64,000 nt of DNA from Hanstruepera marina. Its GTDB lineage: Bacteria > Bacteroidota > Bacteroidia > Flavobacteriales > Flavobacteriaceae. Location: assembly GCF_019880635.1 (NCBI RefSeq), contig NZ_JAINVX010000001.1, forward strand, positions 310,001 to 374,000. The letters are read 5' to 3'. Each line of letters begins with the position of its first letter. Position 1 is the first letter of the stretch. Of this stretch, positions 5,150-11,402 are shown in pieces. The position numbers and the translations under genes were made by a program. The notes beneath the pieces were generated by a model. It was not told where the DNA came from and searched no databases. It saw only the letters and a list, made by a program, of their open reading frames with translations.

Positions 5150-5758
5150 ATGGCTTTCGAATTACCGAAATTAAAATATGCTTATGATGCTTTAGAGCCT
5201 CATATAGACGCACGTACAATGGAAATACACCACTCAAAGCACCATGCTGGTTATACGTCTAAATTAAATGCCGCGGTAGAGGGAACCGATTTAGAAGGTA
5301 AGACCATTGAAAATATTCTAACCAATTTAGATTTGGCAAACATGGGTGTTAGAAATAATGGCGGAGGTTTTTACAACCATTCCTTATTCTGGGACGTTAT
5401 GAATCCAGATGATAGAGGTTATCTTTCTGGCGAGTTAAAAGATGCTATAGAAGCAGAGTATGGTTCTAAAGATACTTTTGTTGAGGCTTTTAGTAAAGCA
5501 GCCGCTACACAATTTGGTTCTGGTTGGGCTTGGCTGTGTGTTCACAAAGGAGGAAAAGTTGAAGTGTGTTCAACACCTAATCAAGATAATCCTTTAATGC
5601 CTGGGGTTGGCTGTGGCGGAACGCCTATTTTAGGTTTAGATGTTTGGGAGCACGCCTATTATCTTAACTATCAAAATAGACGTCCTGATTATATTGATGC
5701 GTTCTTTAAAGTCATTAATTGGAACGAAGTTGAAAGACGTTATGCAGAAGCAAAATAA
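5150..5758 (+). CDS. sodA: Superoxide dismutase, Mn/Fe family
   Basis: This 202-residue cytoplasmic enzyme dismutates superoxide to oxygen and hydrogen peroxide. The four metal ligands are visible as His27 (in EIHHSKHH), His77 (in FYNHSLFW), Asp164 and His168 (in [11 protein letters not shown]). The segments [10 protein letters not shown] and YQNRRPDY favour the Mn or cambialistic subgroup over strict Fe enzymes; this is inference from family patterns and metal use cannot be proved from sequence. There is no signal peptide. It is a single-gene unit: a probable promoter lies just upstream and a perfect 19-bp terminator hairpin begins 11 bases after the stop codon. It is divergent from the AddA-like gene. 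Confidence 0.95.
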
Positions 5759-5769
5759 ACCTAATGCAT

Positions 5770-5815
5770 AAAACAACAAAAAAGGCGAGCAGAAGTTCGC
5801 CTTTTTTGTTGTTTT
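5770..5815 (+). terminator. Intrinsic terminator of sodA
   Basis: A perfect 19-bp stem (5770-5788 with 5797-5815) encloses an 8-base loop, with the GGCGA/TCGCC core at the apex and an A-tract/T-tract base. Because of the flanking A and T tracts it can act in both directions. It directly follows the sodA stop. Confidence 0.85.
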
Positions 5816-5865
5816 ATGGTTTTGAAAAAGAGGAAAAAGTTTAGAGTGTTTTTATATTGAAAATG

Positions 5866-5936
5866 AAAAAAGGTGAACAGAAGTTCACCTTTTTTGCCCC
5901 AAATCTACCATAAACTTAACCTACTTATGTTATGGT
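5866..5936 (+). repeat. Hairpin plus 40-base conserved module, copy 1
   Basis: A 13-bp perfect stem (5866-5878 with 5883-5895, loop AGAA) with A/T tracts resembles a second terminator. It is followed at once by a 40-base segment (5897-5936, beginning CCCCAAATCTACC) that recurs at 6094-6133 with 39 of 40 identities. Within that segment ACCATAAAC and GTTATGGT (5907-5915 and 5929-5936) can pair as a second hairpin with a single bulged base. No open frame covers it. Confidence 0.75.
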
Positions 5937-6060
5937 GGAGCAAATATAACGTTGCTTTTCTTAAATGAAAAAAATTAATAGATAAACGACTAATAAATTG
6001 GCTAAAGGAAACAAAATGAAGTTTTTAAGTGGTGTTATAGGGCAAAAATAGAAGTCAAAT

Positions 6061-6133
6061 AAAAAAAGGCGAACGATAGTTCACCTTTTTTTGCCCCAAA
6101 TCTACCATGAACTTAACCTACTTATGTTATGGT
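6061..6133 (+). repeat. Hairpin plus 40-base conserved module, copy 2
   Basis: This is a second copy of the element at 5866-5936. The first hairpin (6061-6074 with 6079-6092, loop GATA) has one C-A mismatch, and its loop differs from copy 1. The 40-base module (6094-6133) differs from copy 1 at one position only, A to G, and that base is the bulged nucleotide of the second hairpin, so pairing is preserved. Confidence 0.75.
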
Positions 6134-6242
6134 AGTACTAATGTAGATTTTATTTATTTAGAAACGTATAAAAAATAGATAAACTGCATTTTTTTTAGCT
6201 TAAAAGCATATTTTATCAGATAAACTGCATATTTTCAACAAC
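6134..6242. other. Intergenic tail of purF with a 13-base direct repeat
   Basis: The sequence between the repeated hairpins and the purF stop codon is AT-rich and holds no open frame. The 13-mer AGATAAACTGCAT occurs twice, at 6177-6189 and 6218-6230. I see no terminator for purF other than the hairpins to the left, which could serve in the leftward direction. Confidence 0.4.
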
Positions 6243-8141
6243 TTAATAAGCCCGTTCTTTATTCCCTTCAAAGAAATTAATGAACGCTTTATTTACTACT
6301 CTGTTTCCACCAGAAGTTGGGTAATCTCCGGTAAAATACCAATCGCCTAAATTTTTAGGGCAGGCTTTATGTAAATTCTCTACAGATTGAAAAATAGTTT
6401 GCACTTCGGCATTAACAGTATCATCACAAATTAATTCTGCAATTTTGTTGGAGATTTCTTCATCTGTAAATTCTGCATATAAATCCTTAACAAAATTCCT
6501 AACATCCTTATCTTCCAAATCTACTTGCGCTTTACATTTATTGTATACTTCTTGTACCAAGTAATATTTATTGTTTTCTTCCAATAAATCTAACATAGCC
6601 CTAAAGGCAATTAAATCTTCTAATCGCGCCATATCAATCCCATAGCAATCAGGATATCGTATTTGTGGGGCTGATGATACTACAACTATCTTTTTAGGAT
6701 TTAGGCGATCCATCATTTTAATAATACTCTTTTTTAAGGTTGTGCCTCTAACAATACTGTCATCAATAATAACTAGATTGTCTGTGGGTTTAATTACGCC
6801 ATAGGTCACATCATAAACGTGAGCAACCAAATCGTCACGACTACTATCCTCTGTTATAAATGTTCGTAGTTTAACATCCTTTATTGCTATTTTTTCAATA
6901 CGTGGTCGTTCAGACAAAATATCGGTAACAGTCTCGGCACTTAAGCCACCTTTTCCATCTAAAATGGCTTGTGTTTTCTTTTGGTTTAAATAATCTTCAA
7001 CGGTTTCAATCATGCCAAAAAATGAGGTTTCGGCAGTATTTGGTATAAAAGAAAACACTGTATTTCTTGTGTCGTTATCTATGGCTTCAAGTACTTTCGG
7101 CATTAACAGCTTTCCAAGTTCTTTGCGCTCCTGATAGATTTCGGCATCACTCCCTCTTGAAAAATAAATACGTTCAAACGAGCAGGCTTTGCGTTCCAAA
7201 GGTTCTATAATTTTATGAATAGAAACTTCTCCAGATTTTTTAGTAATAATGGCATGGCCGGGTTCCAATTCTTTTACATCATCAAAATCCACATTGAAAA
7301 CGGTTTGTATAACTGGTCTTTCTGATGCTACCACCACCACTTCATCGTCTTTATAATAATATGCTGGTCTGATGCCTGCAGGATCACGTAACACAAACGA
7401 ATCGCCATGACCCAATAAACCGGCCATGGCATAACCACCATCCCAATTTTTGGAAGCTTTTTTCAATATTTTGGCAACGTTTAAACGCTCTGCAATTAAG
7501 GGTGAGCATTCGCTTTTGCTATAGCCTTCCTTTTTTAACTTTTTGTATGCTTTAGATACGGCATCATCAAGGAAATGACCAATTTTTTCCATAATGGTTA
7601 TAGTATCGGCTTTTTCCTTAGGGTGTTGCCCTAATTTTACTAAACCATCAAACAACTGATTTACATTGGTCATATTAAAATTTCCGGCAACAATAAGATT
7701 ACGATGCATCCAATTATTTTGACGTAAGAAAGGATGCACGCTTTCAACGCTGTTTTTGCCAAAAGTTCCGTATCGCACATGCCCCAATAAAACTTCACCT
7801 ATGTATGGGATGTGTTTTTTTTGTAAGGCTACATCATTGGCATATTCAGGGTGTTCTGTAAGGTCTTTATTAATGCGGTCATTAATTTGGGCAAAAATAT
7901 CTTGTATTGGTTGTTGTGCAATAGATCGTACACGGCTTATATAACGCTCACCTGGCTTGGTGTCTAATTTAATACTTGCAAATCCTGCACCATCTTGACC
8001 ACGATTGTGCTGTTTTTCCATCATTAAATACATTTTGTTTACACCATAAAAGGCACTGCCATATTTCTCCTTGTAATATTCTAATGGCTTAAGGAGTCTT
8101 ATTTGTGCAATTCCGCATTCGTGTTTTAAAGCGTCACTCAT
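6243..8141 (-). CDS. purF: Amidophosphoribosyltransferase
   Basis: This 632-residue enzyme makes 5-phosphoribosylamine from PRPP and glutamine, the committed step of purine synthesis. The N-terminal Ntn glutaminase begins at Cys9 (HECGIAQIR), implying removal of an 8-residue propeptide, and GRGQ-like HNRGQDGAG and HVRYGTFG follow. The phosphoribosyltransferase half carries the PRPP loop VIIDDSIVRGTT and the segment SAPQIRYPDCYGIDM. It is about 125 residues longer than E. coli PurF, the extra length lying mainly in the middle and at the C-terminus; this long form is usual in Flavobacteria. Only 49 bases separate it from the upstream PfkB gene, and an intrinsic terminator fills that gap (8159-8187), so purF may be controlled by readthrough or by a promoter inside the PfkB gene. 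Confidence 0.92.
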   Translation of the reverse strand: MSDALKHECGIAQIRLLKPLEYYKEKYGSAFYGVNKMYLMMEKQHNRGQDGAGFASIKLDTKPGERYISRVRSIAQQPIQDIFAQINDRINKDLTEHPEYANDVALQKKHIPYIGEVLLGHVRYGTFGKNSVESVHPFLRQNNWMHRNLIVAGNFNMTNVNQLFDGLVKLGQHPKEKADTITIMEKIGHFLDDAVSKAYKKLKKEGYSKSECSPLIAERLNVAKILKKASKNWDGGYAMAGLLGHGDSFVLRDPAGIRPAYYYKDDEVVVVASERPVIQTVFNVDFDDVKELEPGHAIITKKSGEVSIHKIIEPLERKACSFERIYFSRGSDAEIYQERKELGKLLMPKVLEAIDNDTRNTVFSFIPNTAETSFFGMIETVEDYLNQKKTQAILDGKGGLSAETVTDILSERPRIEKIAIKDVKLRTFITEDSSRDDLVAHVYDVTYGVIKPTDNLVIIDDSIVRGTTLKKSIIKMMDRLNPKKIVVVSSAPQIRYPDCYGIDMARLEDLIAFRAMLDLLEENNKYYLVQEVYNKCKAQVDLEDKDVRNFVKDLYAEFTDEEISNKIAELICDDTVNAEVQTIFQSVENLHKACPKNLGDWYFTGDYPTSGGNRVVNKAFINFFEGNKERAY

Positions 8142-9252: not shown

Positions 9253-10659
9253 ATGAAAAGTTTAAAAAAAGCATTGTTGTATGCCTTTACTGTAAGTTTA
9301 ATAATTAATGGTTTTGGTTTTCTAATCGCAGTTTTAAATGCGAATATGGAAAGTGCATTGACAGACTTTAAAAGGATAGCCCCAATAAGTATTTCAATTT
9401 TGTTTATTCCATGTTTTTTGTCAGGCGTATTTTATAGGGCCGATTTATTCAGTAATAAATTAAAAGCATTAAAATACTTTTTTCTACCTGCAGTCATTTC
9501 ATTTGGTTTTATTTACGCAATTGTCTTTTTTACTTTACTTCCTGACTCAAAACCAACTCATAAGAGCCTTTATATTGTTGCATTGTTTAATGGTGTTTTA
9601 TCTATGGTAATAACAGTGTTTAGTATATTGATTTATTATCTGTTAAACAAAAAGAAAGACAAAAGAAAAGACATGAAGAAATTAAAGCCTTCGTTTTTGA
9701 AAGTCTTGTTAATCTTCTTCTCAATCGCTTTAATGTTCAACGTTCTTGTTTTTTCTTTTGGAAATTCCTCTTGGGTAAATTTTAAAGTGCCTTTTTTGAT
9801 AGTTACGAAGGGGTTTGTGATAACAATATTTTCATTTTTTGCTTTTCAATATGCTTTCAACAAAAACAAAGAATCGTATGTATTTGTCTTAATATACATT
9901 GTAGGGATTTTGGTTATACCATTTGTGTTTACGGAACTTTATTCTGATTTTTCCTTTGAGGTTTTTGTTAAGAAACTGAATATTGTCTTAACAGTAATAG
10001 CTCCTTATTTTTTGTTGATAATGTTAGCTGTTCATGTGTATTTTATTTATCTAAAGAATGAAAAAGAAAAAGAATCCTTAAGGCAAACAAGCGCATCAAC
10101 CAATTTAAAATATCAACAATTAAAAGCACAATTGAGTCCGCATTTCTTGTTTAATAACATTAGTGTGTTAACTGGTTTAATTGAAGAAAGTTCAGAACGA
10201 GCTATAGAATTTTCAGAAAAACTATCATCTATATACAGGTATCTTTTAGATCAGGAGAAAAACGATTTGGTGTTATTAGATCATGAAATCGTTTTTGGTA
10301 AGCAGTACATGGATTTGTTACAAGTGCGGTATGATAATTCCTTGGCGGTAACCTTTAATCTAGATGTAATTTCTGAATATTATATATTACCTTTTTCTTT
10401 GCAAATTGTATTTGAAAATATCATAAAGCACAATGTAGTATCAATGGATAAACCTATGAAAGTAAATGTTAGCTGTATAAATGATTTTTTGATTATAGAG
10501 AATACCCTTCATTTAAAGTCAGTAAATAATTCGAATACGAAGATAGGTTTGGAAAATTTAAAAAAGCGTTATGCATTTTTTACAGATAAAAAAGTAGAAG
10601 TAAGTTCTGACGATTCTATTTATTGTATAAAATTACCTTTGCTAAAAATGCAAGACTAA
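9253..10659 (+). CDS. LytS-type membrane sensor histidine kinase
   Basis: This 468-residue protein has several N-terminal transmembrane helices (about residues 10-275, six to eight hydrophobic segments) followed by a His_kinase (LytS/YehU family) domain. The phosphoacceptor is His297 in LSPHFLFNNISVL. An ATPase region follows with the N-box ENIIKHN and the G-box-like TKIGLENLKKRY. There is no large periplasmic domain, so the signal is probably sensed within or near the membrane. Its stop codon overlaps the start of the LytTR regulator by one base (TAATG), which indicates translational coupling and a cognate pair. The regulated genes cannot be identified from the window. Confidence 0.88.
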   Translation: MKSLKKALLYAFTVSLIINGFGFLIAVLNANMESALTDFKRIAPISISILFIPCFLSGVFYRADLFSNKLKALKYFFLPAVISFGFIYAIVFFTLLPDSKPTHKSLYIVALFNGVLSMVITVFSILIYYLLNKKKDKRKDMKKLKPSFLKVLLIFFSIALMFNVLVFSFGNSSWVNFKVPFLIVTKGFVITIFSFFAFQYAFNKNKESYVFVLIYIVGILVIPFVFTELYSDFSFEVFVKKLNIVLTVIAPYFLLIMLAVHVYFIYLKNEKEKESLRQTSASTNLKYQQLKAQLSPHFLFNNISVLTGLIEESSERAIEFSEKLSSIYRYLLDQEKNDLVLLDHEIVFGKQYMDLLQVRYDNSLAVTFNLDVISEYYILPFSLQIVFENIIKHNVVSMDKPMKVNVSCINDFLIIENTLHLKSVNNSNTKIGLENLKKRYAFFTDKKVEVSSDDSIYCIKLPLLKMQD

Positions 10660-11402
10660 TGAAAGTTGTAATTGTTGAAGACGAGTTGTTGTCTAGTAGA
10701 CGCCTTGAACGCATGCTTACAAGCTTAAAATGCGAAGTTCAAGTATCCTTGCCTTCGGTAGGGTTAGCTGTAGAATGGTTGCAAAATCATACTCATCCCG
10801 AAATTTTATTTTTAGATATTCAATTGTCTGATGGCATGTGTTTTGAAATTTTTAATTGTGTTGAAGTAGAAAGTGCTATTATTTTTACAACAGCTTTTAG
10901 TAATTACAGTTTAAAAGCTTTTAACTATAAAAGTATTTCCTATTTATTAAAACCAATTAATAAACAGGAATTGCAACATGCCATATTGAAAACAAGAACG
11001 TTTTTAAAAAATAAACATGAAATAGAGGCTCTAAAAGATATTGTAACAAAACAAAACTTTAAAGACTATAAACAATCATTCTTCATAAAACTAGGAAACA
11101 AAATAAAAATCATTAATGTTACCGATGTTACATGCTTTTATAGTTTTGATAATGCAACCTATTTGTATAATGGAAGAGGTAATTATATTGTTAACTACTC
11201 GCTTTTAAATTTAAACGACCTGATAGACCCTTCAGATTTTTTTCAGGTCAGCCGAAAATGTATCATTAATAGAAAAAAGGTCGTGAGTTATAACCGTTAT
11301 AATGTAAATCGTTTAAAAGTTGTTTTACAGAATTTTAATGAGTTTGATGTAATAGTCAGTAGGGAGCGGGTAAAAGCTTTTAAGGACTGGATTGAAGCTT
11401 AG
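10659..11402 (+). CDS. LytTR-family response regulator
   Basis: This 247-residue DNA-binding response regulator is the partner of the preceding kinase. The receiver domain (residues 1-115) has the acidic pocket VEDE near residues 6-9, the phosphoacceptor Asp53 in LFLDIQLSDG, and the switch region FTTAFSNYSLKAF with SYLLKP. The LytTR DNA-binding domain follows at about residues 140-247, with FFQVSRKCIINRKKV typical of that fold. I chose the ATG that overlaps the kinase stop; longer in-frame starts begin with TTG inside the kinase. The stop codon directly abuts the stop codon of the convergent rnhA gene, leaving no intergenic space for a terminator. Confidence 0.9.
   Translation: MKVVIVEDELLSSRRLERMLTSLKCEVQVSLPSVGLAVEWLQNHTHPEILFLDIQLSDGMCFEIFNCVEVESAIIFTTAFSNYSLKAFNYKSISYLLKPINKQELQHAILKTRTFLKNKHEIEALKDIVTKQNFKDYKQSFFIKLGNKIKIINVTDVTCFYSFDNATYLYNGRGNYIVNYSLLNLNDLIDPSDFFQVSRKCIINRKKVVSYNRYNVNRLKVVLQNFNEFDVIVSRERVKAFKDWIEA

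Follow-up and report, generated by a model that had tools for sequence, protein, structure and literature searches.

Tandem genes for a putative base-pairing small RNA between purF and sodA in Hanstruepera marina, with relatives across the Flavobacteriaceae

The window, a stretch of 64,000 nucleotides from Hanstruepera marina, carries a 484-base gap between the stop codon of sodA (5758) and the end of purF (6243), in which no open reading frame (ORF) of at least 80 amino acids was found. A repeat search revealed a direct repeat with a spacing of 197 bp in this gap: a module of 41 nt at 5896-5936 recurs at 6093-6133, and each copy adjoins a hairpin (5866-5895 and 6061-6092, respectively). The gap, the direct repeat and both hairpins described in a first-pass annotation of this DNA were thus verified; the single mismatch that it reported between the modules also stands, but over 41 nt and as 40/41 rather than 39/40. 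Folding placed this sole T/C difference in a bulge beside a small stem with the pairing kept, in agreement with the annotation. In a consensus scan of 5700-6300, five terminator-like sites were called versus 0.1 expected in shuffles; three of them overlap and represent the plus-strand terminator of sodA itself, and the other two, one at each repeat, were called on the minus strand only. A third hairpin in the gap (5767-5818), which lacks the module, is sodA's own terminator, with a perfect 22-bp stem.

Read on the minus strand, each copy consists of a promoter box, the conserved body and a terminator, in this order. The arrangement originally proposed, a terminator followed by a conserved 3′ tail on the plus strand, is not supported: the module precedes the hairpin on the minus strand. 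According to PMC9723704, the sigmaA box of Flavobacterium psychrophilum is TAnnTTTG at -12 to -5, and +1 was therefore placed at the first base of the conserved body. In copy 1, the putative -7 box TATATTTG (5941-5948, minus strand), called on sequence, spacing and the consensus and position given in that source, is followed by four bases and then by ACCATAAC; the corresponding box of copy 2, TACATTAG (6138-6145, minus strand), was called on sequence and spacing. Together, the repeat, its relatives, the promoter spacing and the terminators delineate two predicted small RNA (sRNA) genes on the minus strand, copy 1 of about 71 nt (5866-5936; predicted +1 at 5936) and copy 2 of about 73 nt (6061-6133; predicted +1 at 6133). 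Each would comprise the conserved 41-nt body (5896-5936 and 6093-6133, respectively; defined by folding and comparison) and an intrinsic terminator (5866-5895 and 6061-6092; indicated by the consensus scan and by comparative variation). The sRNA is predicted to fold as two hairpins, and the body of copy 1 provides a small stem, a pairing loop and single-stranded GAUUUGGGGC.

This anatomy recurs in 259 distinct copies, which were selected by body match: 210 of them carry [TC]AnnTT at exactly -12 to -5, and 258 end in an intrinsic terminator. The terminator stems comprise 43 distinct six-pair cores, all pairing (the stem finder being biased toward pairing). Stem sequence thus varies with pairing kept, and the 41-nt body is almost invariant and far more conserved than the terminator; within the body, pairing of stem 1 is maintained via the bulge and G-U pairs. 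At most loci read in one genus of the phylum sample, CATTAGTAGGTT replaces CATAAGTAGGTT.

A third module copy is present in the genome (G000:C5:166780-166850; G000 denotes this genome), and full copies were found in all five genomes searched in the genus, this one included; the repeat is therefore not due to chance. At E<=1e-3 (73-nt blastn query), relatives of the sRNA were detected in 163 of 199 family genomes, sampled as one per genus. The first-pass annotation had named absence of the module from this and related genomes as evidence against its proposal, and the module is clearly present elsewhere. With strict filters, a covariance model applied to a phylum sample of 296 genomes matched 26, every one of them inside the family, and gave no match in four family members listed in that sample. 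Up to six copies were counted in a genome (G005 of the phylum sample); as a rule, the best four candidates per family genome were scored, so that copy numbers are lower bounds. The genomic setting is likewise conserved, with copies usually in tandem, downstream of purF and convergent with sodA. Of 19 stretches, each from a different other genus, all 19 have purF upstream on the same strand as the sRNA, and 18 have sodA convergent with it, the exception (L098) showing no sodA. Among the matches listed by an exact-pattern scan, at least 116 stretches were available, of which 97 have purF on the same strand, 90 have convergent sodA, 78 have both and 109 one or both; neither gene was found within 2.5 kb in seven, and the opposite orientation of purF or sodA was found in none. 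Viral contigs and plasmids gave no sRNA match, and the one match returned by a phage search, 20 bases long and in a Klebsiella phage, is put down to chance. The locus thus looks chromosomal and vertically inherited, with some extra copies elsewhere, such as that on G000:C5.

These observations bear on the proposal that the repeats are terminators active in both directions and bearing a conserved tail, or else a mobile terminator cassette (the latter also raised by the first-pass annotation), in which the module would function as DNA or as a processing signal of purF mRNA. The repeats do lie between convergent genes, and their hairpins could act on both strands. However, a promoter box at fixed spacing, a body far more conserved than the terminator, and an unlinked complementary target with constrained codons (described below) all argue against it, as do the conserved purF/sodA setting of the copies and the lack of matches in viral contigs and plasmids, and we regard it as extremely improbable.

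The predicted main target is an unannotated small-protein gene. Elsewhere in the genome lies a degenerate relative of the body that, on the opposite strand, is the 5′ UTR and start of this gene, which encodes 41-43 residues (G000:C4:130978-131100, minus strand; consensus MNFATNLPEQPTxxESKFKETxxENLxFxKSLxYLTKKIFML). The degenerate repeats at G000:C4:131061-131165 had been considered as an sRNA sponge and were rejected as such, because they are the 5′ UTR and coding start of that gene. Nearly the whole body is complementary to the 5′ UTR plus start codon of the small-protein gene, and a second time to codons 5-12. Thirty-three such loci were read, and an ORF was obtained by the script rule in 31 (none in L254 and L258); L231 was mis-picked and excluded, L240 was corrected for the codon and site analyses, and the gene at L255 has 30 residues only. 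For all 29 genes tested (four from Hanstruepera), the predicted duplex between copy 1 of the window and the small-protein mRNA, at -39.1 to -51.4 kcal/mol, is stronger than each of 60 dinucleotide shuffles of its own (means -22.9 to -27.6). When only the body was used, site A (-40 to +5) gave -28.4 to -43.7 kcal/mol with the start codon covered in 27 of 27 genes, and site B (offsets 6 to 41) gave -21.5 to -37.0 kcal/mol with offsets 13-34 (codons 5-12) paired in 25 to 27 of 27. The body alone scored -40.7 kcal/mol on the target of its own genome; for 56 ORF starts in the window, its scores averaged -15.9 (sd 3.5) and reached -24.4 at best. Furthermore, a strict start-site pattern matched in 9 of the 199 family genomes, in eight of these at the small-protein start by coordinates, and its reversed control matched in none of the 199.

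Codon usage at site B points to selection on pairing. Across 26 full-length small-protein genes, codons 6-11 each use a single synonymous codon (N AAT, 25/25; L CTA, 26/26; P CCT, 23/23; E GAA, 25/25; Q CAA, 19/19; P CCT, 24/24), and conserved residues near the C terminus vary in codon: leucine -8 is encoded by TTA, CTA, CTT or TTG, and threonine -7 by three codons. Part of this uniformity may reflect AT-rich codon bias, because codons 2, 3 and 13, which the paired block does not include, are likewise invariant; the case for constraint by pairing is strongest for leucine CTA and proline CCT. Offset 28 is variable (A in 19, T in 6 and C in 2), although predicted to be paired in 26 of 27 genes, and T at this position turns the glutamine into leucine. 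The retention of complementarity also bears on the idea that the body binds a regulatory protein as a titrating RNA, with the complementary genes as side effects. Extreme conservation of the whole body and its multiple copies would suit such a role, but what the target keeps over its start codon and constrained codons is the complement of the body rather than the same sequence, so that we consider this idea highly unlikely.

The small protein also co-occurs with the sRNA. At E<=1e-3 it was found in 78 of the 199 genomes, with the sRNA present in 78 of 78, and in none of the 36 genomes without the sRNA (Fisher 1.7e-9, a value inflated by shared ancestry and genome reduction). At E<=0.01, 84 of 89 small-protein genomes carry the sRNA, with five weak hits in sRNA-less genomes. 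As many as 85 of the 163 sRNA genomes have no small protein at E<=1e-3, and the small protein alone therefore cannot account for the conservation of the body. An AlphaFold model of the protein consists of one helix (residues 13-40; mean pLDDT 77.6), which is amphipathic and charged without a clear membrane span; no match was found in Pfam, NCBIfam, PADLOC or PHROGs (three, three, one and one sequences tested, respectively). Antisense pairing is almost complete at the start of this peptide of 42 residues, which is predicted to form a single long helix, and no sRNA-less genome has the peptide at E<=1e-3; both would be expected of a dispersed pair resembling a type I toxin-antitoxin system, in which a harmful peptide is silenced by a multicopy sRNA. 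Yet the two loci are unlinked in this genome, whereas in such systems the antisense gene adjoins the toxin gene; in many genomes the sRNA occurs but the peptide does not, the charged, amphipathic helix is no clear membrane span, and a second, unrelated target is indicated. Such a pair is thus improbable in our estimation.

This second target is likely a lipoprotein with a CAP domain (PF00188, tested on the protein of this genome). CCAAATCTAAATAACCTAACAATGA is identical at the start of its gene in all five Hanstruepera genomes, at some of which the loci were read. The lipoprotein was detected in 40 of 198 family genomes at E<=0.01 (107-nt query); 20 of these loci were read and 19 yielded an ORF of 164-166 residues, with CCAAATCTA exact in 16 of the 19 and variant in three. 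The predicted pairing ranges from -26.1 to -45.0 kcal/mol and is, in some genera, weak and not convincing by energy alone. Across the five Hanstruepera genomes, CCCAAATCTA gave 86 matches versus 50 in the reversed control, and CCAAATCTA-N(0-24)-ATGA gave 53 versus 33; as these matches are only modestly above the reversed controls, the short seed alone cannot identify targets. A third site, CCAAATCTATTGA(A)ATATGA, is present in all five Hanstruepera genomes and is not claimed as a target: at both loci read, it lies ahead of a secreted protein of 271 residues, and the pairing is weak (-28.0 and -31.5 kcal/mol). Further complementary sites were observed in the genus. In one Hanstruepera genome, a near-complete complementary site (-43.8 kcal/mol) lies before the start of a 47-residue lipoprotein-like ORF (L025), and in two Hanstruepera genomes (L030 and L031) an sRNA-complementary site lies past the stop codon of a probable secreted protein.

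The sRNA and its predicted targets appear to share upstream repeats. Upstream of copy 2 are three operator-like direct repeats with a period of 20-21 bp (6178-6230, minus strand; pattern match at G000:C4:316178-316230, with a pattern partly designed from this site). Upstream of copy 1 are diverged repeats only (TTTAGCC and GTTTATCT; 5980-6006, minus strand), recognized from sequence and upstream alignment and not matched by the strict pattern. Alignment of sRNA upstream regions likewise revealed repeat cores about 20 bp apart. The operator pattern, which consists of two ATG-N-TT-A-C repeats spaced by about 20 bp, was modelled on the promoters of the small-protein gene and of sRNA copy 2; in this genome it recovered both design sites (copy 2 twice, overlapping) and, independently, sites upstream of the CAP lipoprotein gene and of an ECF sigma gene (PF04542). 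Its reversed control gave no match in any of the five genomes, and the pattern itself gave none in one of them (G004). As copy 2, both targets and the ECF sigma gene all have direct repeats of about 20 bp upstream, a single activator may drive both the sRNA and the genes that the sRNA would repress. That this activator is of LytTR type is a guess made from the spacing of the repeats and a site consensus. At 9253-11402 the window encodes a histidine kinase of LytS type (PF06580) paired with a LytTR response regulator (PF04397); this pair was rejected as the regulator, as none of the 19 stretches of other genera gave a hit to it at E<=1e-10. Other operator-associated loci were observed as well. 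In two Hanstruepera genomes (L330 and L321), an operator match at 1501 is followed by a short conserved unit that might be a further small RNA or a sponge: it has a 12-codon frame, a terminator and ACCCTAAATCTAACA, which resembles a complement of the sRNA. At L331 and L332 (G000:C9 and G001:C2), the shared operator stands upstream of an ECF sigma factor gene, and the nearby opposite strand bears AACCAACTTATG and CCCCAAGTCTA before a terminator-like hairpin.

Overall, a promoter at fixed spacing, an intrinsic terminator at the 3′ end and conserved complementarity to an unlinked mRNA were found, as characterize a trans-acting base-pairing sRNA. Among the options offered by the first-pass annotation, a small RNA fits best: the element very probably represents tandem paralogous genes for such an sRNA of about 72 nt, which would repress translation of co-regulated genes. 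Comparison of genomes supplied the gene anatomy, conservation, complementarity, constrained codons at the pairing site, co-occurrence and shared repeats; from these we infer transcription, repression and an activator. The sRNA would be transcribed leftward from sigmaA-type promoters and ended by the intrinsic terminators, and its body would pair, through the loop CAUAAGUAGGUU and single-stranded GGUAGAUUUGGGG, with complements around mRNA start codons. On the small-protein mRNA, one such site would cover the start codon, and another would take in codons 5-12. Pairing at the start codon would block ribosome loading, and translational repression is most likely, because the pairing covers the start codon, the choice between repression and activation being read from pairing position.

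The RNA could instead be real with the pairing reversed in effect, the small-protein mRNA titrating the sRNA as a sponge or being stabilized or activated by it. That mRNA carries two full sites plus further CCCCAAAT-like elements in its 5′ UTR, and operator-like repeats are common to its gene and the sRNA. Against this, site A lies over the start codon in 27 of 27 genes, the usual position for repression, and the protein sequence itself is conserved, so that the mRNA is not merely a decoy; such a reversal is rather unlikely. Under translational repression, co-transcription of the sRNA with its targets might create a delay or a threshold. More tentatively, and as a possibility to which we give somewhat less than even chances, one activator (perhaps of LytTR type) acting at direct-repeat operators of about 20 bp might drive, throughout the Flavobacteriaceae, a single circuit of the hyperconserved multicopy sRNA, its targets (the 42-residue helical peptide and the CAP lipoprotein) and the ECF sigma factor, with the peptide mRNA selected to keep its second pairing site, within the coding sequence, so that two sRNA molecules could hold one transcript. 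If the reading as a base-pairing sRNA is true, the element would encode a regulatory RNA that is near-core in a large family of environmental bacteria; it would come with an unannotated small protein and a target that is specific and open to test. Small-RNA regulation in flavobacteria is little known, and, as synonymous codons of the target are constrained, genome sequences by themselves allow the pairing to be read, which would make the circuit directly testable.

The element was compared with known RNAs. Flavo-1, a Bacteroidetes RNA motif suggested by the first-pass annotation, was not among the Rfam matches to the window up to E=10, and neither it nor any other family of Rfam 15 matched the window at gathering score; the matches at relaxed thresholds, all below gathering score, were mostly hairpin-driven. 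Multicopy families such as LhrC, the Cia-dependent sRNAs and Qrr consist of sibling sRNAs, some under one response regulator. They belong to other phyla, have no Rfam sequence relation to the sRNA here and are named as multicopy sRNA families in PMC11697453. A literature search, covering little of the subscription journals and preprints, returned no description of this RNA, nor do the available parts of PMC9723704 and PMC11697453 contain one. Rfp18 of Flavobacterium psychrophilum is likewise flavobacterial, conserved in its genus and provided with predicted mRNA targets, but is described, in PMC9723704, as pairing via a third stem-loop, whereas the sRNA here folds as two hairpins (a comparison by description); the sRNA here could nevertheless be among the 85 new Rfp transcripts of that species. 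A likeness was also drawn with FopS (RF04319) of Bacteroides thetaiotaomicron, which, according to PMC11697453, is also multicopy, about 65-70 nt long, with a conserved 5′ pairing region, sigmaA-type promoters and pairing at translation starts. This likeness, which extends to several short paralogues sharing the pairing region (up to six copies here, in G005), is one of kind and not of membership: the RF04319 model scored 20.3 and 20.7 bits on the minus strand versus a gathering score of 56. RbpB binding and repression of SusC mRNAs are marks of FopS. It targets SusC transporters (same source), whereas a 42-residue protein and a CAP lipoprotein are the predicted targets here, and the conserved tandem purF-sodA locus is a feature of the present sRNA and not of FopS. 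We therefore rate the element as a probable new sRNA family of a known kind, set apart from Rfp18 by description, for which the evidence on targets that genomes alone provide is unusually clear.
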